Shown piece by piece: positions 14,069 to 55,845 of a stretch of 56,468 nucleotides of DNA. Within the stretch, counting starts at the first letter, position 1. Each line of letters begins with the position of its first letter. A model generated the notes under the pieces. It was not told the DNA's origin, ran no database searches, and saw only the letters and a list, made by a program, of their open reading frames with translations. The position numbers and the translations under genes were made by a program. This DNA is from Dehalococcoidia bacterium (GTDB taxonomy: Bacteria > Chloroflexota > Dehalococcoidia > GIF9 > AB-539-J10). The stretch covers positions 1 through 56,468 of the forward strand of contig JAGGVQ010000007.1 of assembly GCA_021157895.1 (NCBI GenBank), in the 5' to 3' direction.

Positions 14069-14644
14069 ATGAAGTTAATTGTTGGTTTGGGAAATCGGGG
14101 GAGGATATATGCGCATAATCGTCATAATATTGGGTTTCACTGCCTGAACTATTTCGCTAGGGTTCATGATATCCATTTTGACCGGCAGCAGTGTCGGGCC
14201 AGGGTAGGATTTGATAAAACTGGTGAATTGTTGTTGGTCAAGCCCAGCACTTTTATCAACCTCAGTGGTGAATCCGTTGCTTCCCTGGCACACAGGTATC
14301 ATGTTGCTGTCGAGGATATCCTGGTAATTTGTGACGACCTGGATTTACCCCTGGGTAAAGTTCGCTTGCGCCAAAATGGTGGGTCTGGAGGCCATAAGGG
14401 GATGAGATCTATTATATCTGAACTGGGTAGTGATGAGTTCCCTCGCATCAGGGTAGGTATTGGCCGACCGGCTGATTTCACGGGTGTGTCCACCACTGAC
14501 ACCGACATGATAGTTGATTATGTGCTTGGTGATATTACTTCACAGGAAGAGGAAATACTCAAGCCGGCGATTCTTAAGGTATCTGAAGCTATCGATTGTT
14601 TTCTCCAGCAGGGGATGGAGATAGCTATGAGCAGGTTTAACTAG
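14069..14644 (+). CDS. pth: Peptidyl-tRNA hydrolase
   Basis: LIVGLGNRGRIYAHNRHNIGF, VKPSTFINLSGES, DDLDLPLGKVRLRQNGGSGGHKGMRSI. Confidence 0.95.
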   Translation: MKLIVGLGNRGRIYAHNRHNIGFHCLNYFARVHDIHFDRQQCRARVGFDKTGELLLVKPSTFINLSGESVASLAHRYHVAVEDILVICDDLDLPLGKVRLRQNGGSGGHKGMRSIISELGSDEFPRIRVGIGRPADFTGVSTTDTDMIVDYVLGDITSQEEEILKPAILKVSEAIDCFLQQGMEIAMSRFN

Positions 14645-14686
14645 AAACGAGGATTTGGCAGGCACAGGTAGTGTATACTTTGTACT

Positions 14687-17464
<2,778 letters not shown>

Positions 17465-17486
17465 TGATATATCAGGAGGTAAGTAA

Positions 17487-18506
17487 ATGACGACGATTGG
17501 TATTAATGGATTTGGCCGTATCGGAAGGTTAACCCTCAGGGCAATCAAGCAATTGCATGGTAGGGATCTGGAAGTTGTCGCGGTGAATGATCTCACAGAT
17601 GTTAAAACTAGTGCGCACCTGTTTAAATATGATAGCACCTACGGTGTTTATCCTGGCACAGTGGAAGCCAAGGGAGATGCTATTGTAGTGGATGGGAGGG
17701 CAATCAAGGTGTTAGCAGAACGTGAGCCAGAAAAATTGCCCTGGCGAAAGCTGGGTGCTGAGATAATTCTGGAATCCACGGGAATATTTACTGGAATTCC
17801 AGATGCTCTTCGTCACCTTGATGCTGGCGCCAAGAGGGTAATTTTGACTGCTCGGTACAAGGGCAGTGCGGTAAATGCGGTTATGGTTAATATGGGAGTT
17901 AACCAGGATGATTACAATCCTGACCAGCACCAGCTGATTTCTATGGCTTCCTGCACTACGAATAGTTTGACTCCGCTTATGAAGGTCTTGCTGGATAATC
18001 TTGGTATTGAAAAAGCATTGATGACCACCATTCATTCTTACACCAATGATCAGAGAATTCTGGATTTTGGCCATAAAGATTTACGCCGAGCTCGTGCTGC
18101 TGCACTGTCAATAATTCCTACCACCACTAATGCTGCAGTAGCAGTCACTGAGGTTATCCCGGCGCTCAAAGGGAAGTTTGATGGAATGTCGATGCGGGTG
18201 CCGACACCTACAGGTTCACTCTCGGATGTCACTGCTATTGTTGGGCGCGATACTACCGCCGAGGAAGTAAATAGCCTGCTGAAGAAGGCTTCAGAGAATG
18301 AGATGAAGGGGATACTGGGATATACTGAAGAGCCGCTGGTATCCCGAGACATAGTGGGAACCACATATTCAGCGATTGTCGATGCCCTGTCTACGAGGGT
18401 GATGGATGGGAACATGGTTAAGGTGTTGACCTGGTATGATAACGAGTGGGCCTATAGTGCTCGGATTGCTGATCTTGCCATCTATATTGCCAGCAAAGGC
18501 CTGTAG
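17487..18506 (+). CDS. gap: Type I glyceraldehyde-3-phosphate dehydrogenase
   Basis: TTIGINGFGRIGRLTLRA, SMASCTTNSLTPLMKVL active-site Cys, WYDNEWAYSARIADL. Confidence 0.95.
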   Translation: MTTIGINGFGRIGRLTLRAIKQLHGRDLEVVAVNDLTDVKTSAHLFKYDSTYGVYPGTVEAKGDAIVVDGRAIKVLAEREPEKLPWRKLGAEIILESTGIFTGIPDALRHLDAGAKRVILTARYKGSAVNAVMVNMGVNQDDYNPDQHQLISMASCTTNSLTPLMKVLLDNLGIEKALMTTIHSYTNDQRILDFGHKDLRRARAAALSIIPTTTNAAVAVTEVIPALKGKFDGMSMRVPTPTGSLSDVTAIVGRDTTAEEVNSLLKKASENEMKGILGYTEEPLVSRDIVGTTYSAIVDALSTRVMDGNMVKVLTWYDNEWAYSARIADLAIYIASKGL

Positions 18507-18594
18507 AATGTCCTGGTAGCAGTGGGTACTGTTTGGGCGGGAATGCGTTATATATTAGCCCAATAAACTTTTCCTTATTCCTTTCGTTTTTCAC

Positions 18595-18600
18595 TATAAT
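18595..18600 (+). promoter_or_regulatory. Consensus -10 box TATAAT upstream of the sigma-factor gene
   Basis: TATAAT at 18595-18600, 13 nt before the ATG at 18614; no strong -35 seen. Confidence 0.5.
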
Positions 18601-18613
18601 AGACATCACGCCG

Positions 18614-19153
18614 ATGTCTAGTGAGAAAGATGTAGTCGCTCGAGCAATAAAGGGGGATGGGGAAGCTTTTACTCAGCTCTATGAGGCAAACTTCGATAGG
18701 ATATATCGCTATATTTACCTGAGAGTAGGAAATATATCTGAAGCTGAGGATTTAACCCAAGAGGTGTTTGTTAAGGCTATGGGAGCGCTTTCCTCATATC
18801 GCTGGCGGAATTTGCCCTTTATCTCCTGGCTGTTTCGCATTGCTCGCAACCAGGTTATTGATTACCTGAGGAAGAGGGATAAAGTGGTGACACAGGAACT
18901 GGATGACAATATTACTCTGCATGCAGAGTCGGGTCCTGCGGATATCACTGAACGGAAGCTTGAGATTGAGAAACTGGCGGGGTTAATCGACAAATTGTCT
19001 CCAGCGCAAAAGGAAGTGATTATCCTCCGTTTTAGCTCCGAACTCTCCATCATCGAGACAGCTACTGCCTTGGGGAAAAAACAAGGAACGATTAAGGCTT
19101 TACAGTATACAGGGATAATGGCGCTGAGGAATATGGTGTTTGAGGATAAATAG
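18614..19153 (+). CDS. ECF-type RNA polymerase sigma factor
   Basis: EANFDRIYRYIYLRVGNISEAEDLTQEVFVKAM, FISWLFRIARNQVIDYLRKRDK, C-terminal LSPAQKEVIILRFSSELSIIETA. ATG at 18614 preferred over the track start 18533. Confidence 0.85.
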   Translation: MSSEKDVVARAIKGDGEAFTQLYEANFDRIYRYIYLRVGNISEAEDLTQEVFVKAMGALSSYRWRNLPFISWLFRIARNQVIDYLRKRDKVVTQELDDNITLHAESGPADITERKLEIEKLAGLIDKLSPAQKEVIILRFSSELSIIETATALGKKQGTIKALQYTGIMALRNMVFEDK

Positions 19154-19969
19154 TTGATGACACAGCAAATGCAGGATGTATTGGTTCGGTGTATAGAGCG
19201 GTTATCTGCCGGGGATAGAGTGGAAAATTGCCTTAGGGATTATCCGGAGCAGGCTTCTGAGTTGAAGCCGTTGTTGCAGACTACCATTGCTGTTCGACGA
19301 AGTTGCTCTGCCGTTAAACCACGGGCGGAGTATAAAGCTAAGGTTTATGACTATCTGGAACAGTTATATTGTGATAGACAAGCCAGGAAGGGAAGAGGAT
19401 GGAGCTTTTTCGCCTGGCATAGGCATTGGGCTGTGGCTATGATAGCTGTTGTGATGGTGTTATTTTCTGGCATGGGGATAGTCGTGGCATCTTCTGGGGC
19501 TTTGCCTGGTGAGTCCCTTTATACGATAAAGCTGGTCACGGAGAAAGTAAAGCTGGCGACCTCTGTATCTGATATGCATAAGGCGAAATTGCACATTCAA
19601 TTTGCCGAAAGGAGAGCAGATGAGATCGCGCGGTTGGTTCGAGAGGGCAAAACTGAATCTATACCTGCTTTGACCGATGAAATTGGGAATCAGTTGAATT
19701 GTGTAATTTTTGGGTCTCGGGCAATGAAGAATTTTCAGGCAGGAGATTCCCAATTGCCTTCTACTGAGAATTTCTGGATGGGGAGTGCGGAAGAAAGTGA
19801 AGTTACCGAGATAATAGAATTGTTACACCAAAGTCGAGAGCGAAGCCTGCATGAATTGAATGATGCCTTGTCTCAAAGTTCATTGACGGCCTTACCCAGT
19901 CTGGAACAGGCCATAAGAGATACAAGTCAGGCTTATGATGATACACTGCTCATACTGGAGGGTGACTAG
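19154..19969 (+). CDS. DUF5667-like single-pass membrane protein, partner of the upstream sigma factor
   Basis: Cytoplasmic helical N-terminus, TM AVAMIAVVMVLFSGMGIVVASSG, then ALPGESLYTIKLVTEKVKLATSVSDMHKAKLHIQFAERRADEIARL pattern. Confidence 0.7.
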   Translation: MMTQQMQDVLVRCIERLSAGDRVENCLRDYPEQASELKPLLQTTIAVRRSCSAVKPRAEYKAKVYDYLEQLYCDRQARKGRGWSFFAWHRHWAVAMIAVVMVLFSGMGIVVASSGALPGESLYTIKLVTEKVKLATSVSDMHKAKLHIQFAERRADEIARLVREGKTESIPALTDEIGNQLNCVIFGSRAMKNFQAGDSQLPSTENFWMGSAEESEVTEIIELLHQSRERSLHELNDALSQSSLTALPSLEQAIRDTSQAYDDTLLILEGD

Positions 19970-20005
19970 CCTTTTGGAGAGGTAGTAACCAGGGTATAAT
20001 AAGCG

Positions 20006-21607
20006 GTGTCTATGGAATGGGAAGTTCTTTATCGTAAGTGGCGCCCGCAAACCTTGGCTCAGGTTGTGGGACAGCATGTGGTGACTGAGACTTTGTGTCA
20101 TGCTGTTGAGAAGGGAGAAATAGGGCATGCATATCTCTTTTGCGGTCCTCGAGGTACAGGGAAAACCAGCACGGCTCGTATTTTGGCCAAGGCCGTGAAT
20201 TGCCCCCAGCAGAAGGGGGGAGAGCCGTGCAATGCTTGTGATATTTGCACCTCAATCACTGAAGGCAGGGCTTTGGACGTGATTGAGATAGATGCTGCCA
20301 GCAATCGCGGCATTGATGATATTCGTAGTCTCAGGGAGAAGGTCAATTACTCGCCGCAGCGGGCCAGGTACAAGGTATATATCATAGATGAAGTACACAT
20401 GCTTACTGAGGCAGCGGCCAATGCGTTATTGAAAACCCTGGAGGAGCCTCCAGAGCATGTTATTTTCATCTTGGCCACAACGGAGCCTCACAAAGTCATA
20501 TCCACTATCATGTCGCGATGCCAGAGATTTGATTTTCGCCGTTTACCGCAGGATACTATAGCCACCAAGTTGGAGGGGATAAGTCATAGTGAAAACATAA
20601 CTATCGCTCCTGAGTCGTTGAGACTCATTGCCCATGTAGCTGGTGGAAGTCTTCGAGACGCGGAGAACATATTACAGCAGTTAATTGCTTATCATGGGCA
20701 CGAGGTTGATGCTGGTCAAGTTGAAGAGATGCTTGGAGTTAGTGAAGATTCGAGGATCGGACCTCTAGTCGCAAGCATAGTTAATAAGGATGTTTCCACT
20801 GGTTTGAAGATTATCAATATGGTTGGCAGTGATGCTGTGAATCTGCGCCAATTTACCCAGGGATTAGTGAAGGAGCTACGCGGCTTGTTATTAGCCAAGA
20901 CTCGATGTGGTGAGATTCTGGACGTCGCAGCTGATGATCTGGCAGAGATGGAACGATTGGTGACTGGAGTCGACGTTGGTTTCTTGCTGCGAGCGGTCAA
21001 GCGCTTTGCTGATATTGATTTTCGTGGCAATGGCTATTCCACGTTGCCTTTGGAATTAGCCCTGGTGGAGTGCACGTTGTCTCCAGTTGTAGTCTATGGT
21101 GAGTCTTCGGACTCGAGTTCAGAGAAGATAGAGCAAGCGGTGAAGGGGGAAGAGAAGAAGGAGGTTGTTGTCTTATCACCAGGCTCTACCGTATCTTCTT
21201 CGCTGAGCAAGCCTCCTGTTTCCGAGGATATTTCCAGTACTGTAGGTGAAAGCGATGCTAGTGATATCGATTATTTTCATGGTCAATGGGGGAGGTTCAT
21301 CGATTCTTTGCGGGGGGAGGGCTCAGGAGGTACTCTGGATGCGTTTTTACGGAGTGCCTGCGAACCGATAGGTATTGATAATGACACTCTGGTATTGGGA
21401 TTTTATTATCCTTTTCACAAGGAAAAGATCGAGGAGCCCAAGTATAAGAGTTTGGTGGAGAAAAAAATCAAGGAGATTTTTGGCAAGCCTTATGCTGTAA
21501 AGTGTGTATTAATTGATTCTAAGAAAGACACGTCGCTGAAGCGCAGTAAAGGTAGTCCCTTAATTCAGGCGGCGCTGGAAATGGGGGGTAAAATCGAAAA
21601 TGGATAA
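20006..21607 (+). CDS. dnaX: DNA polymerase III subunit gamma/tau
   Basis: YRKWRPQTLAQVVGQ, GPRGTGKTSTARILAKAVNC, CNACDIC, IDEVHMLTEAAANALLKTLEEPPEHV. Confidence 0.95.
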   Translation: MSMEWEVLYRKWRPQTLAQVVGQHVVTETLCHAVEKGEIGHAYLFCGPRGTGKTSTARILAKAVNCPQQKGGEPCNACDICTSITEGRALDVIEIDAASNRGIDDIRSLREKVNYSPQRARYKVYIIDEVHMLTEAAANALLKTLEEPPEHVIFILATTEPHKVISTIMSRCQRFDFRRLPQDTIATKLEGISHSENITIAPESLRLIAHVAGGSLRDAENILQQLIAYHGHEVDAGQVEEMLGVSEDSRIGPLVASIVNKDVSTGLKIINMVGSDAVNLRQFTQGLVKELRGLLLAKTRCGEILDVAADDLAEMERLVTGVDVGFLLRAVKRFADIDFRGNGYSTLPLELALVECTLSPVVVYGESSDSSSEKIEQAVKGEEKKEVVVLSPGSTVSSSLSKPPVSEDISSTVGESDASDIDYFHGQWGRFIDSLRGEGSGGTLDAFLRSACEPIGIDNDTLVLGFYYPFHKEKIEEPKYKSLVEKKIKEIFGKPYAVKCVLIDSKKDTSLKRSKGSPLIQAALEMGGKIENG

Positions 21608-43580: not shown

Positions 43581-44682
43581 ATGCAACAGCAACGAGACAT
43601 GTTAAGGGCCTTGCGCCGCAGGATTTCCGATATCATGGTGCATCTTTGACATCCCTGCTAAAGAAAAGGAAATTACCAGGATAGAGCAGGAGTCAGCCAG
43701 TCCTGACTTCTGGCACTCGCCGGCAAAGGCTCAGACTATCATGCGCCACCTGGGGACCATGAAGAACCAGGTTCACACCTGGCGTAGCCTGGAGAGGAAA
43801 GTTGCTGATCTCTATGATGTCGCTGCATTAGCGGTGGAGGAGGGTGACTCTTCCCTTGAGCCAGAAGTAGACCGGGAATTGAGCGAGTTAACTGCACAGT
43901 TTGATGGCCTTGAGAGTCAGCTAATGTTCAGCAGTGACTATGATAGACGCAATGCCATTATTTCTCTTCATTCTGGAGCTGGAGGGATAGAATCGCAGGA
44001 TTGGGCTAGCATGTTGCTCAGGATGTATCTCAGGTGGGCCGAGCGACACCATTACCAGACCGAGATCTTGGATAGCTCTCCCGGGGAAGAGGCTGGCATC
44101 AAAAGTGCTGTCGTCGAGGTCAAGGGAGAATATGCCTATGGCTATCTCAGGGGTGAACGTGGGGTGCATAGATTGGTACGGCTTTCTCCCTTTGATGCTG
44201 ATCATGCACGGCATACATCCTTTGCCCTGGCAGAGGTCATCCCTGAAGCGGAGGGGGTGCTGGATATTGACATAAACCCGGCAGACTTGAAGGTGGAAAC
44301 CTTTCGGTCGAGTGGGCCTGGAGGGCAACATATGCAAAAGACGAGCAGTGCTGTGAGAATAACTCACCTGCCCACGGGGATAGTGGCAACGTGCCAGGAA
44401 GGCCGGTCTCAGTACCAGAATAAGGAAGTTGCCCAGAGAATTCTTTATGCTCGGCTCCTGGACAGGGAAATAAAGATCAGGGAGAAAGAAAGTGATACGC
44501 TCAGGGGCGAGCATGTTGATGCTGCCTGGGGCAACCAGATCAGGAGTTATGTCCTGCACCCATACCAGATGGTGAAGGACCATCGCACGGGATATGAGAC
44601 TGGCAATGCGGAGGCGGTACTGGATGGGAACCTGGATAAACTTATCGATGCCTATCTGCGTTTTGAGGTTGGAGAGAAATGA
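43581..44682 (+). CDS. prfB: Peptide chain release factor 2, expressed through a programmed +1 frameshift
   Basis: ORF1 MQQQRDMLRALRRRISDIMVHL ends at in-frame TGA 43647-43649 within CTTTGAC; the +1 frame continues DIPAKEKEITRIEQESASPDFWHSPAKAQTIMRHLG into the annotated 43741 ORF. GGQ motif RSSGPGGQHMQKTSSAVRITHLPTG. Confidence 0.93.
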
Positions 44683-51191: not shown

Positions 51192-51821
51192 CTGAGTAAG
51201 TTCTTTTTCCTTCCCCGCGATGTCAAGTTCTACGACCTTTTTGAGAAGGCCACCGCCAACCTGGTTACTGCTTCTGCCAGTCTTGCTGACATGTTTGATA
51301 ACTATACTGATGTCGAGAATAAGGCCCGGCATCTCAAGGAGATGGAGAACGCGGGTGATAGTATCACTCACGAGATAGTACAGCGACTGCATGGCACCTT
51401 CGTGACTCCCATTGACCGCGAGGACATAGCTCATCTCGCCCACACCCTGGATGATGTGATGGATTACATTGAGGCTGCGGGCAGAACTGCCTTCCTGTAC
51501 CGTGTAGAGCAACCGACGCAGCGAGCCCGGGAGCTGTGTACCGTCATAGTGGAGATGACCGACAAGTTAAATCAGGTGTTGCCGCTCTTGCGCCATCGTG
51601 AGAAATTCCCCCACATATTGAAGGGATGCGTGGAGATTAACCGTCTGGAAAACCAGGCTGATGATATCCACCATTCTGCCCAGGCGGAGCTGTTTGATGG
51701 CAGTCGTGATGCCTGTGATGTCATCAAGTGGCGTGAAATTTACCAGCACCTGGAAAATGCTACTGATAAGGGTGAGGGCGTGGCCAATATTCTCGAGGGC
51801 GTAGTATTAAAGAATGCCTGA
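51192..51821 (+). CDS. DUF47/PhoU-like phosphate transport accessory protein; probable CTG start
   Basis: In-frame extension (L)SKFFFLPRDVKFYDLFEKATANLVTASASLADM upstream of the track ATG 51291; SD ggagg 6 nt before CTG 51192; in-frame TGA at 51177 bounds the start. Confidence 0.85.
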   Translation: MSKFFFLPRDVKFYDLFEKATANLVTASASLADMFDNYTDVENKARHLKEMENAGDSITHEIVQRLHGTFVTPIDREDIAHLAHTLDDVMDYIEAAGRTAFLYRVEQPTQRARELCTVIVEMTDKLNQVLPLLRHREKFPHILKGCVEINRLENQADDIHHSAQAELFDGSRDACDVIKWREIYQHLENATDKGEGVANILEGVVLKNA

Positions 51822-52806
51822 ATCTCCAGCACTGCTGGTTGTACTGATTGTTGTCGCTATAGCCTTTGGAGTTACCAATGGCTTTAATGATGCCGCCAAT
51901 GCCATTGCCACCGTGATTGGCACGCGCAGCCTTTCTCCCCGCAAAGCCATTCTCATGGCTGCTGCCTGTAACTTTGCTGGTGCTGCCACGGGCACTGCTG
52001 TGGCCATGACCATTGGCAAGGGGATTGTTGCTGCGGAATATGTGAATATGACCATTGTCCTCGCCGGGGTGGGAGCAATTGTTATCTGGGGAGTACTGGC
52101 CACATACAGTGGCATGCCCATTAGCCTGACACATGGACTGGTAGCGGGGTTGGTAGGGGCGGGCATCGCCCAGGCAGGCTCTGTTGCCATCGTGTGGCAG
52201 GTACTGACCCGGGTGTTGTCGGCGGTAGCCATTGCACCGATACTGGGATTTGGTGGAGGCTTTCTGGTTATGGTGGGTATTATGTGGGCCTTTCGCCATA
52301 AAGCGCCCAACAAGGTGCGCCTGTTCTTCGCCAATGCCCAAATCCTCTCTGCTGCCTTCCTGTCGTACAGTCATGGCAAGAATGATGGGCAGATGCCCAT
52401 TGGCGTTATTTCCATGGCACTGATGGCATATTATGGTTACAGCGAGTTCTATATTCCGGTGTGGGCTGTCCTGGTCTCGGCCACTGCCATCAGCATGGGA
52501 ACGGCATTTGGTGGCTGGCGGGTCATCCAGACCCTGGGATTGAAGATGACCACGCTGCGGCCTGCTGGCGGATTCGCTGCCAATCTATCTGCGGCAGTGG
52601 TTATTGAACTTGCCTCGCACTTTGGCATTCCTGTCAGCACCACGCACTGTGCCAGCTCCGCCATCATGGGGGTGGGGGCTACCAGGCGTCTATCTGCGGT
52701 AAAATGGGGCATAGTAAGGAATATCGTTCTTACCTGGATATTGACTTTTCCTGCCTGCGGCCTTCTCGGCTGGGGTATCGCCGAGCTACTGCAGGTGTTT
52801 TCCTAA
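51814..52806 (+). CDS. PiT-family inorganic phosphate transporter
   Basis: FGVTNGFNDAANAIATVIGTRSLSPRKAI; SYSHGKNDGQMPIG; GIPVSTTHCASSAIMGVGATRR. Confidence 0.93.
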   Translation: MPESPALLVVLIVVAIAFGVTNGFNDAANAIATVIGTRSLSPRKAILMAAACNFAGAATGTAVAMTIGKGIVAAEYVNMTIVLAGVGAIVIWGVLATYSGMPISLTHGLVAGLVGAGIAQAGSVAIVWQVLTRVLSAVAIAPILGFGGGFLVMVGIMWAFRHKAPNKVRLFFANAQILSAAFLSYSHGKNDGQMPIGVISMALMAYYGYSEFYIPVWAVLVSATAISMGTAFGGWRVIQTLGLKMTTLRPAGGFAANLSAAVVIELASHFGIPVSTTHCASSAIMGVGATRRLSAVKWGIVRNIVLTWILTFPACGLLGWGIAELLQVFS

Positions 52807-52813
52807 CGCCTGG

Positions 52814-53989
52814 TTACAGTGTGGGCAGATCCTTGCCGAGCTGGGCCAGCGCATCTATCTTCCCGTGAATCTCATCCAGCTGTATCTGGTGGTCCTGCCC
52901 GTAAATCGTGCCCTTCTCATAGATTTCCTTGATGCGGGGCACGAAGGCCAGCTGGGATAATATCAGGGTGACATCGATGAAATGCTTTTCCCCGGGAAAA
53001 TCTCCTCCCCGGATAACGGCCTGGGGTGCGATCTCCTTGATATAGCTGCTGACACTCTGCACCATGTCCATGCTCATCTCTTTTGCTGGGCCGGCAGTGA
53101 GATACAGGGCAAGCCCGGCGTCCCTGGGGTTGACTGATACTGACATATCTCCCACGGTGGCTTCCAGCGCCTGTGTTCCCCGGGAGCTTTCCAGCGCCTT
53201 GTCACGGAAGTGTTTCTTATTGATTTCCCATGGAAAGCGGAAGCTGGGCAGGGTAACTCTGCCGGTGCTGATGGCGGTCCAGCCCTCCAGGGATGCCATG
53301 ATGTCACCGCCGTCAACGGTGCGCGTGCCGACATTCTTGGCCTGCGTTACCTCGCCGGCGCACATCAGGTCGTAGAACGGCTCGGCGATCTGGCGGTTAA
53401 TCTTCTCGATATTGTTGACCAGGCTGGCATCCTTCTCAACGTATCTCTGGTTATCGGCCAGAAATACCGCATCGACGATGTCAAAAGTGGACTTGAGGCA
53501 GGTAGCCGTGTTATACAGGGTGCGTGATTCGGTATCCTGCTCGTGCTCGAAGGGCAATACGGCGAGGACAAACAGGGGCTTATTGATATAGCGCTCCTTG
53601 ATCATCTGGGCCACCACGGGCAGTGAACCTGAGCCTGTGCCTCCGCCGGTGCCGGCGATGAGCAGGAAGGCGTGTGTCTGGTAGAAATAAGGGTTGGACT
53701 TGATGGCATCCACGATCTTATCGCCGTCTGCCCGGGCCAGTTCCGCTCCCAGCTCGTTTAGCTTGCCCACGCCGTGGCCATGCGTCTGGCGCAAGCCGAT
53801 GAGTATGCGGTGCTTGTGATCTGTCTGGATGTATTTCAGTCCGGTCAGGTCCGCCTGGTCGGCATTCACGGCGATGACATTGGGAGCGATGACGGCCTTG
53901 CGCTCGCGGCGGGCCTTGCTATTTAATCGAGCAAACTGGTCGGCAACACGCGAGCCGCACTGCCCTAACCCGATAACAGTTAATTTCAT
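52814..53989 (-). CDS. Divergent tubulin/FtsZ/CetZ-family GTPase
   Basis: N-terminal VIGLGQCGSRVADQFA; tubulin signature FLLIAGTGGGTGSGSLPVVAQMI; FLADNQRYV; no FtsZ C-terminal tail peptide seen. Confidence 0.85.
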   Translation of the reverse strand: MKLTVIGLGQCGSRVADQFARLNSKARRERKAVIAPNVIAVNADQADLTGLKYIQTDHKHRILIGLRQTHGHGVGKLNELGAELARADGDKIVDAIKSNPYFYQTHAFLLIAGTGGGTGSGSLPVVAQMIKERYINKPLFVLAVLPFEHEQDTESRTLYNTATCLKSTFDIVDAVFLADNQRYVEKDASLVNNIEKINRQIAEPFYDLMCAGEVTQAKNVGTRTVDGGDIMASLEGWTAISTGRVTLPSFRFPWEINKKHFRDKALESSRGTQALEATVGDMSVSVNPRDAGLALYLTAGPAKEMSMDMVQSVSSYIKEIAPQAVIRGGDFPGEKHFIDVTLILSQLAFVPRIKEIYEKGTIYGQDHQIQLDEIHGKIDALAQLGKDLPTL

Positions 53990-54104
53990 TATTTATTTCC
54001 TCCTGCGGTTATGCCAAGATTATATCGTCATAGTGCCTCTCGCTGCAAGGGCAAGGGCATTTTTGAGAGAGACAACAAAAGTTTTGTGAACTGGCAGTGG
54101 GAGC

Positions 54105-55766
54105 TTAGTAGTAATATCTGCTCCTTGACCTGATGTAGAATACCAGCCCGACAATGAGTGCTATTGCCAGGACAACAACAGCGATGGCCGCCCACTGGGG
54201 CATATAGCCGGCGCGGAAGGTCTGGACATCCGACCACGAGCCGGTGTTCATGGCTCCATCAATGGCTCTTATTTGCCACTGGTAGCTGCCGTAGGGAAGG
54301 GAATACTCCCCTGCTAGGGAATAGCTGGTGCTGTTGGTGCCGGCCTGGGTAGCTGACGGCAGGATGACCAGGGGCGATGAAAATACGGGAGTGACATTGG
54401 TGGTGCCATTGACGACCCTCACCTGGTATATCTGCAGCTCATATTTATTGATTCCGCTGGTGTCGCTTATGGTGGTCCAGGTAAATGTGGGGCGGACCTT
54501 TCCGAGCAAATTGCCCAGGACGCCTGTTCGCTTGCCATTCAGGGGAGAGAGCGGAGTTATCTTGGCCGGCGCCGTCGATTCCATGACGAAGTTGGTGCTT
54601 GCAATGGCGCTGGCTCCATAGGTGGCCTGCACCGGGTGGTTTGTGGTGTGCGTGCTCTGGGTGTGGGTAGCGGTAAAGCTGACGCCGCTGAAGGTGCCGG
54701 TGGCGCTGGTGGTCACAGAGCCTATCGTGGCGCCATCATAGCTTAAAGTTAAGGGGATATTGGCACTGAAGCCACTTCCCGAGACATTTACTACCTGCCC
54801 CACGTGACCCGGAGAACTGGTGCTGGCGGCCGGGTTCAATATGATTTTTGGGCTCAGCGTGAACTCGGTTGATGCCACGGAAGTGGTGGCGCTGCCGAGG
54901 TAGGCCTCGATATCATAGGTGCCCTGTATGTGTGAGGGCACGACGAAGTTTACCGGTCCCCAGCTTCCCCTGCTATCGGATGCGATGTTGCTGAGCACGG
55001 TCTCGCCGTCGAACTTCAGCTTGATGTCAGTCCTCCCGCCACTGAAACCGGTGCCGGAAGCGGTGACGCTGTCACCAACGAAACCCGTGCTGGGGCTTGC
55101 CGTGATATCCCTCAGCACCTCGAAGTCAGGCGCAGACATGACCAGAACATCATCCTCGTACAGCTTCAGGTCATGTGAGCCCCTGGTGGAAGCGGGCACG
55201 GTGAAGGTTATGGTTAGTGAGCCATACTCGTCGGTCTCCAGGTTATCGGCCACTGTCTCGTAGCTGCTGCTGGTATAGTAGTAGCGCAGGCTGATGTCAT
55301 CGGCATCCGCCTCGCCGCCGGTTACCTTTAATGTGACCTGGTCCCCCACGTGTCCCTTGCCGGAGCTGGGAGATATTATCTCGGCACTGGATGTCACGGA
55401 GAAGGTCGTGTTTGCTATAATATCATATACGGGATTATTATACTGGCCGGCGCGGATCTCGTGGTCTCCATAGGCGCTCTCCGGGATATCGGCCAGGACG
55501 GACAGGTCATCTCCAGTTTCTGTGTATGTTCCCCCGGGATTCAGCAGGACCCAGTCGTCCTCAGCCCTCTCGTAGTGTATGTAGATTGTTGTTTCCGGGA
55601 CGAAGTTTTCCCCGGTGAGCACGACACTGGTTTCCACGGGGCCGGTGGCGGGAGAGACATTTATTTGAGCTTCTTCAGGCCCATCAGCCTGGACGGGGCT
55701 GGTGAAAAAGGGTACTGCCAGCACGCATAGCGCCAGCACGATAAACAGTCGGAATAGCAGTTTCAT
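54105..55766 (-). CDS. Secreted IPT/TIG-like repeat surface protein with C-terminal membrane anchor
   Basis: Signal peptide MKLLFRLFIVLALCVLAVPFFTSPVQA; about four repeats of the xPxxGxVGxxVTxxGxGF type; Fn3-like region; C-terminal MPQWAAIAVVVLAIALIVGLVFYIRSRSRYYY. Start moved to ATG 55766 (SD aaggag). Confidence 0.75.
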   Translation of the reverse strand: MKLLFRLFIVLALCVLAVPFFTSPVQADGPEEAQINVSPATGPVETSVVLTGENFVPETTIYIHYERAEDDWVLLNPGGTYTETGDDLSVLADIPESAYGDHEIRAGQYNNPVYDIIANTTFSVTSSAEIISPSSGKGHVGDQVTLKVTGGEADADDISLRYYYTSSSYETVADNLETDEYGSLTITFTVPASTRGSHDLKLYEDDVLVMSAPDFEVLRDITASPSTGFVGDSVTASGTGFSGGRTDIKLKFDGETVLSNIASDSRGSWGPVNFVVPSHIQGTYDIEAYLGSATTSVASTEFTLSPKIILNPAASTSSPGHVGQVVNVSGSGFSANIPLTLSYDGATIGSVTTSATGTFSGVSFTATHTQSTHTTNHPVQATYGASAIASTNFVMESTAPAKITPLSPLNGKRTGVLGNLLGKVRPTFTWTTISDTSGINKYELQIYQVRVVNGTTNVTPVFSSPLVILPSATQAGTNSTSYSLAGEYSLPYGSYQWQIRAIDGAMNTGSWSDVQTFRAGYMPQWAAIAVVVLAIALIVGLVFYIRSRSRYYY

Positions 55767-55845
55767 TCGCGAACTCCTTGAATCGGTAAACATTTGCGCC
55801 AAAGTATAACCGTTCTTGAATATCAAGGCAAGAATATAAAAGGAA

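Follow-up and report, generated by a model that had tools for sequence, protein, structure and literature searches.

The gene at positions 52814 to 53989 of the window, by which we mean the whole 56,468-nucleotide stretch of Dehalococcoidia DNA analyzed here, encodes a tubulin-like GTPase that almost without doubt belongs to the CetZ family. Taken as a whole, we regard it as reasonably probable that this GTPase forms membrane filaments serving cell shape or the envelope, while FtsZ and FtsA divide the cell. The family is known and its bacterial branch appears to have been little noticed, the pattern reported here being apparently undescribed. Recent CetZ papers still term the family archaea-specific (PMC9856176, PMC11621097), and no description of the paralogs, the C-terminal tail, the neighboring gene pair or the confinement to murein-less lineages was found in the open-access literature.

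Identification of the protein as CetZ

The gene and its parts are the following.

52814..53989, minus strand: cetZ gene, CetZ-family tubulin-like GTPase of 391 aa (ORF, Pfam, PDB sequence matches, tree, fold search)
53999..54004, minus strand: likely ribosome-binding site of cetZ, AGGAGG (direct reading of the sequence)
53939..53971, minus strand: T1 loop GLGQCGSRVAD, residues 7-17, of the CetZ type GxGQ[AC]G
53627..53653, minus strand: T4 tubulin signature GTGGGTGSG, residues 113-121
53288..53320, minus strand: T7 synergy loop TVDGGDIMASL, with acids at both catalytic positions (alignment)
52913..53425, minus strand: CetZ_C domain (PF21011), residues 189-359 (Pfam)
52835..52939, minus strand: long C-terminal helix of 35 residues, residues 351-385 (AlphaFold model)
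52817..52834, minus strand: conserved C-terminal tail KDLPTL, residues 386-391 (alignments)

The ORF is intact and its start codon, read from the window sequence, is ATG. The first-pass annotation had proposed a tubulin/CetZ-like GTPase with a clear GTGGGTGSG signature. The signature is indeed present, and the assignment to CetZ was borne out by the Pfam CetZ_C domain, PDB matches, fold, phylogeny and failure of the curated FtsZ model. Pfam Tubulin (PF00091) scored 109.2 bits (cut-off 33, E 4e-31) and CetZ_C 60.3 bits (cut-off 21.6, E 2e-16). The FtsZ equivalog TIGR00065 gave 63.6 bits, far below its cut-off of 295.2, and this weak match is confined to the N-terminal domain. A phmmer search of PDB sequences returned Haloferax volcanii CetZ1 (PDB 4b46) end to end at 7e-45, followed by CetZ2 (2e-25) and Methanosaeta CetZ (7e-14), with FtsZ afterwards. 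The best three fold matches of the AlphaFold model (mean pLDDT 83) were again CetZ1, CetZ2 and Methanosaeta CetZ, although the input alignment of the model consisted of 28 archaeal CetZ proteins, so that the fold match partly repeats the sequence evidence.

CetZ1 shares with the window protein homology over the whole length, the fold (TM 0.93 on target, rmsd 2.1), the GxGQ(A/C)G motif, the T7 acids and an acidic-hydrophobic C-terminal tail. The differences are an identity of only about 31%, the bacterial host, the tail itself (KDLPTL against the DELESLF type of CetZ1) and the placement in a separate clade.

Phylogeny of bacterial CetZ

The main tree comprised 47 rows of FtsZ and CetZ sequences. 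It places the protein on the CetZ side, split from FtsZ with support of 100/100. In this tree it groups with the orthologs of its own family (100/100), on a branch separate from archaeal CetZ. The paralog clade that holds the second CetZ of the genome lies inside the bacterial group (98/99). There is also a second bacterial type in the class, represented by L004-L013 (from f1/g3, f14, f35 and f50), which forms a clade of its own (100/98) and joins archaeal CetZ in a group that excludes the window type (99/100). Like the window protein, these sequences carry the CetZ_C domain and come from murein-less hosts. However, their identity is about 30% to the window protein and about 40-46% to archaeal CetZ, and the DIPSL-type tail described below occurs in none of nine of them.

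A single origin of all bacterial CetZ was considered and set aside, since the best tree gives two CetZ lineages in the class, though a topology with all bacterial sequences in one clade narrowly passes the AU test (p 0.084). The bacterial clade is monophyletic in a 128-row tree, and the 47-row tree does not fix where the root lies among the window type. The window protein almost certainly belongs to the same group as the Chloroflexota-Dehalococcoidia CetZ-like sequences of Santana-Molina et al. 2023 (PMC9871819). In the accessible portion of that paper, a single sentence mentions these CetZ-like proteins, and a match of the CetZ C-terminal profile to bacterial Chloroflexota sequences is reported. 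The sequences are called sparse paraphyletic groups there, and that portion describes no paralogs, tail, neighbors or link with murein loss.

Other tubulin-family genes of the genome

The source assembly (737 kb in 18 contigs, 68% complete) has three tubulin-family genes: a canonical FtsZ on contig C10, the window CetZ and a second CetZ on C17. It is extremely improbable that the window protein is instead a divergent FtsZ of this genome. That reading draws on its membership of the tubulin superfamily and on the weak N-terminal TIGR00065 match, but the score is far short of the cut-off, the FtsZ on C10 passes with 396.7 bits, and the CetZ clade is fully supported. The first-pass annotation had named a sole FtsZ clustering with canonical FtsZ as the outcome that would overturn its proposal; a canonical ftsZ was found on another contig, which refutes this identity. 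It is this gene, and not cetZ, that sits in the remnant of the ftsA/dcw cluster, within mraZ-mraW-ftsA-ftsZ. The two proteins share the tubulin GTPase domain and the core of the tail (DVP-F in FtsZ), while their identity is about 20%.

TubZ entries rank far under CetZ both by PDB sequence and by fold, and cetZ is surrounded by chromosomal housekeeping genes rather than by a plasmid-partition context. A viral or phage origin was also rejected: one scan of viral contigs yielded no relatives, and viral tubulins were only distant fold matches.

The second CetZ is 45% identical to the window protein. In its locus (L086 3278-6699, contig C17), two genes flank this cetZ, one for a coiled-coil protein of 528 aa, rich in Ala and Glu, and one for a helical protein of 153 aa. 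A long coiled-coil gene lies beside the second-paralog cetZ in 11 of 13 loci from several families, and its product is a possible partner of the second CetZ. In another genome, one cetZ copy (L062, G229:C49) is interrupted by a TAG stop and is possibly decaying.

Catalytic loops and C-terminal tail

In the alignment, conservation covers the P-loop-like T1 loop (G-x-GQ[AC]G) as well as T4 and T7. GLGQCGSRVAD had been called unusual for an N-terminus; the motif is present, but GxGQ(A/C)G is what CetZ proteins ordinarily carry there. At the two T7 positions the bacterial clade has D in 90% and D in 97% of sequences; the counterparts are D plus E in archaeal CetZ, and FtsZ shows N-x-D-x-x-D. Judged by sequence, the nucleotide-binding and T7 catalytic loops of the window protein are intact, and since both acids are kept, GTP hydrolysis across the protofilament contact is predicted to be likely.

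The long C-terminal helix ends in a short conserved tail of the form [DEGSKN]-[ILVM]-P-[STNVK]-[LVI], which was seen in 61 of the 71 bacterial sequences of the set, with the consensus KD(I/L)P(S/T)L around the window type. Its P and L columns reach about 3 bits, against about 0.5-2 bits in the preceding helix, making the tail the better conserved part. The earlier statement that the FtsZ C-terminal peptide is missing holds for the basic-ended form, as the protein ends in KDLPTL without basic residues; the tail nevertheless resembles the core of that peptide. The conserved tail suggests a docking peptide that was inherited with CetZ and has a core resembling the FtsZ peptide.

The tail could also speak for an accessory part in division, with CetZ as a second tubulin of the Z-ring that assists FtsZ and shares FtsA or another anchor through DLPTL. 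The FtsZ of the genome bears LDVPSFIRRR near its C-terminus, FtsA is encoded in the genome, and in some relatives a second canonical FtsZ gene is present as well. However, cetZ lies outside mraZ-mraW-ftsA-ftsZ and there are congeners with FtsZ only. Moreover, archaeal CetZ termini have the same form (D-x-[IL]-[ED]-P-L-F, with the final Leu aligned in 29 of 29 rows), so that the tail is better explained by descent from CetZ than by a link to FtsA. We therefore consider a role in division unlikely.

Genomic neighborhood

Three neighboring or comparable loci of the window are relevant here.

54105..55826, minus strand: TIG/Ig-domain surface-protein gene directly upstream of cetZ (Pfam TIG 5e-9; conserved neighbor)
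51291..52806, plus strand: PhoU-like (DUF47) and PiT phosphate transporter genes, convergent, given as context only (ORFs, Pfam)
14069..21607, plus strand: pth - LOG-like - eno - gap ... dnaX block, here without cetZ

These genes agree with the neighbors first described, a PiT transporter and anchored surface proteins: the former is the PhoU-like (DUF47)/PiT pair, and the latter has Ig/TIG domains and a C-terminal anchor. An operon of cetZ with the PiT transporter was ruled out because the genes are convergent. Given this tail-to-tail arrangement, only the upstream surface-protein gene could share transcription with cetZ. The spacing of the pair is 115 nt. A pattern scan detected no more than weak matches to terminators nearby, plus a single promoter-like one immediately ahead of cetZ.

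The surface protein, the only TIG match in the genome, has one C-terminal transmembrane segment followed by a short, basic, tyrosine-rich end. Such ends (RSRYYY, RRGSYD, RKGYYD and similar) are conserved in the family (window, L034, L037, L038, L040, L042 and L044). All seven loci of the family of the window have a TIG surface gene as the immediate upstream neighbor of cetZ, in the same orientation, with gaps of 41-345 nt; among the sister families this holds for 3 of 4 loci, with gaps of 171-1061 nt. In other families cetZ is found beside gap/dnaX or coiled-coil genes, and the link with the surface protein is thus lineage-specific. In family f50 the archaeal-type cetZ, too, has a TIG protein nearby, perhaps for no other reason than the shared TIG domain.

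Most other families, such as Dehalococcoides-like genomes, have the order pth-LOG-eno-(dehydratase-like)-gap-cetZ-dnaX-ybaB-recR. The window has the pth...dnaX block without cetZ, which indicates that the gene has probably moved. The position of cetZ between gap/eno and dnaX-ybaB-recR in many relatives would fit a protein on which metabolic or DNA-processing complexes assemble, or a TubZ-like function in DNA segregation, and scaffolding roles have been suggested for archaeal CetZ from gene neighborhoods (Brown and Duggin 2023, PMC9856176). We find this reading quite improbable, as the window cetZ lies outside that block, no plasmid or DNA-binding partner adjoins it, and TubZ scores far below CetZ. 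Elsewhere in the window, prfB (release factor 2; 43581-44682, plus strand) carries the classical programmed frameshift signal, CTT TGA C, at 43644.

Distribution and loss of murein

CetZ_C matches occur in 67 of the 294 Dehalococcoidia genomes covered, often in two or three copies per genome. In a draw of 301 genomes across the phylum there were 22 positives, all in this class, and none among the 263 genomes of the same draw from outside it. MurG is present in 130 of the 294 genomes and never together with CetZ (0/294). In a 72-genome subset, MreB was found in 0 of 29 CetZ genomes versus 23 of 23 MurG genomes, and a PBP transpeptidase in 1 of 29 versus 23 of 23. The single exception, G229, lacks MurG and MreB, and its enzyme could be a contamination or repurposed.

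In an rpoB tree, every CetZ genome falls inside one lineage (SH-aLRT 86) that has no MurG genome and that also contains fifteen subset genomes with neither CetZ nor MurG. Since all carriers belong to this one murein-less, MreB-less lineage, the exclusion rests on few independent events. The tree implies about one murein loss, so that the exclusion is a correlation within one lineage; of 6 independent pairs, only 0-2 contrast in the presence of murein, and no significance is claimed. A naive Fisher test (p 9e-21) was discarded as invalid owing to shared ancestry. According to published work, the dcw genes were lost once, in the ancestor shared by Dehalococcoidales and SAR202, and the wall of D. 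mccartyi has been described as S-layer-like (PMC10608941).

Proposed role

The occurrence of CetZ only in a lineage without a peptidoglycan wall and MreB makes it a candidate scaffold for shape or envelope. In these cells, which keep FtsZ/FtsA for division and no longer have the peptidoglycan/MreB shape system, CetZ would assemble in a GTP-dependent manner into filaments lining the cytoplasmic side of the membrane. Its C-terminal helix and tail would attach it either to a membrane adaptor or to an anchored surface protein, like the product of the upstream gene, and CetZ would help to set cell shape or to place envelope proteins. In Haloferax, rod shape and motility depend in part on CetZ1 (PMC11621097). 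The role in cell shape that the first-pass annotation suggested as possible is plausible for the window protein. Several species of the same family (G188, G199, G210 and G246) have FtsZ only, so CetZ is not essential for shape there. With the fifteen genomes of the lineage that have neither marker, this makes CetZ dispensable. A fuller scenario, in which CetZ took over shape or envelope patterning after the loss of peptidoglycan and MreB, entered the class at least twice and is tied through its tail to the TIG surface protein, is tentative and in our view rather doubtful. A widespread bacterial CetZ branch, restricted to hosts lacking murein and MreB, would render shape-keeping in wall-less bacteria testable, and likewise the question of whether a CetZ cytoskeleton accompanies an S-layer-type envelope.

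FtsZ annotations in Dehalococcoides

Among the CetZ-bearing families, f16 is organohalide-respiring, with 8 to 42 reductive dehalogenase matches in each of eight single-contig genomes of 1.4-2.1 Mb. From these matches and the published Dehalococcoidia CetZ-like sequences (PMC9871819), we infer that f16 corresponds to Dehalococcoides/Dehalogenimonas. In D. mccartyi 195, DET0343, DET0589 and DET0636 are annotated as FtsZ (PMC5102406). Going by relative position alone, DET0589 is a possible CetZ and DET0636 possibly an additional FtsZ, and the multiple 'FtsZ' annotations in Dehalococcoides should be read with the warning that they may include CetZ. Two or three canonical FtsZ-type genes, besides or instead of CetZ, were seen in several genomes of the class, namely G013, G068, G200 and G032.
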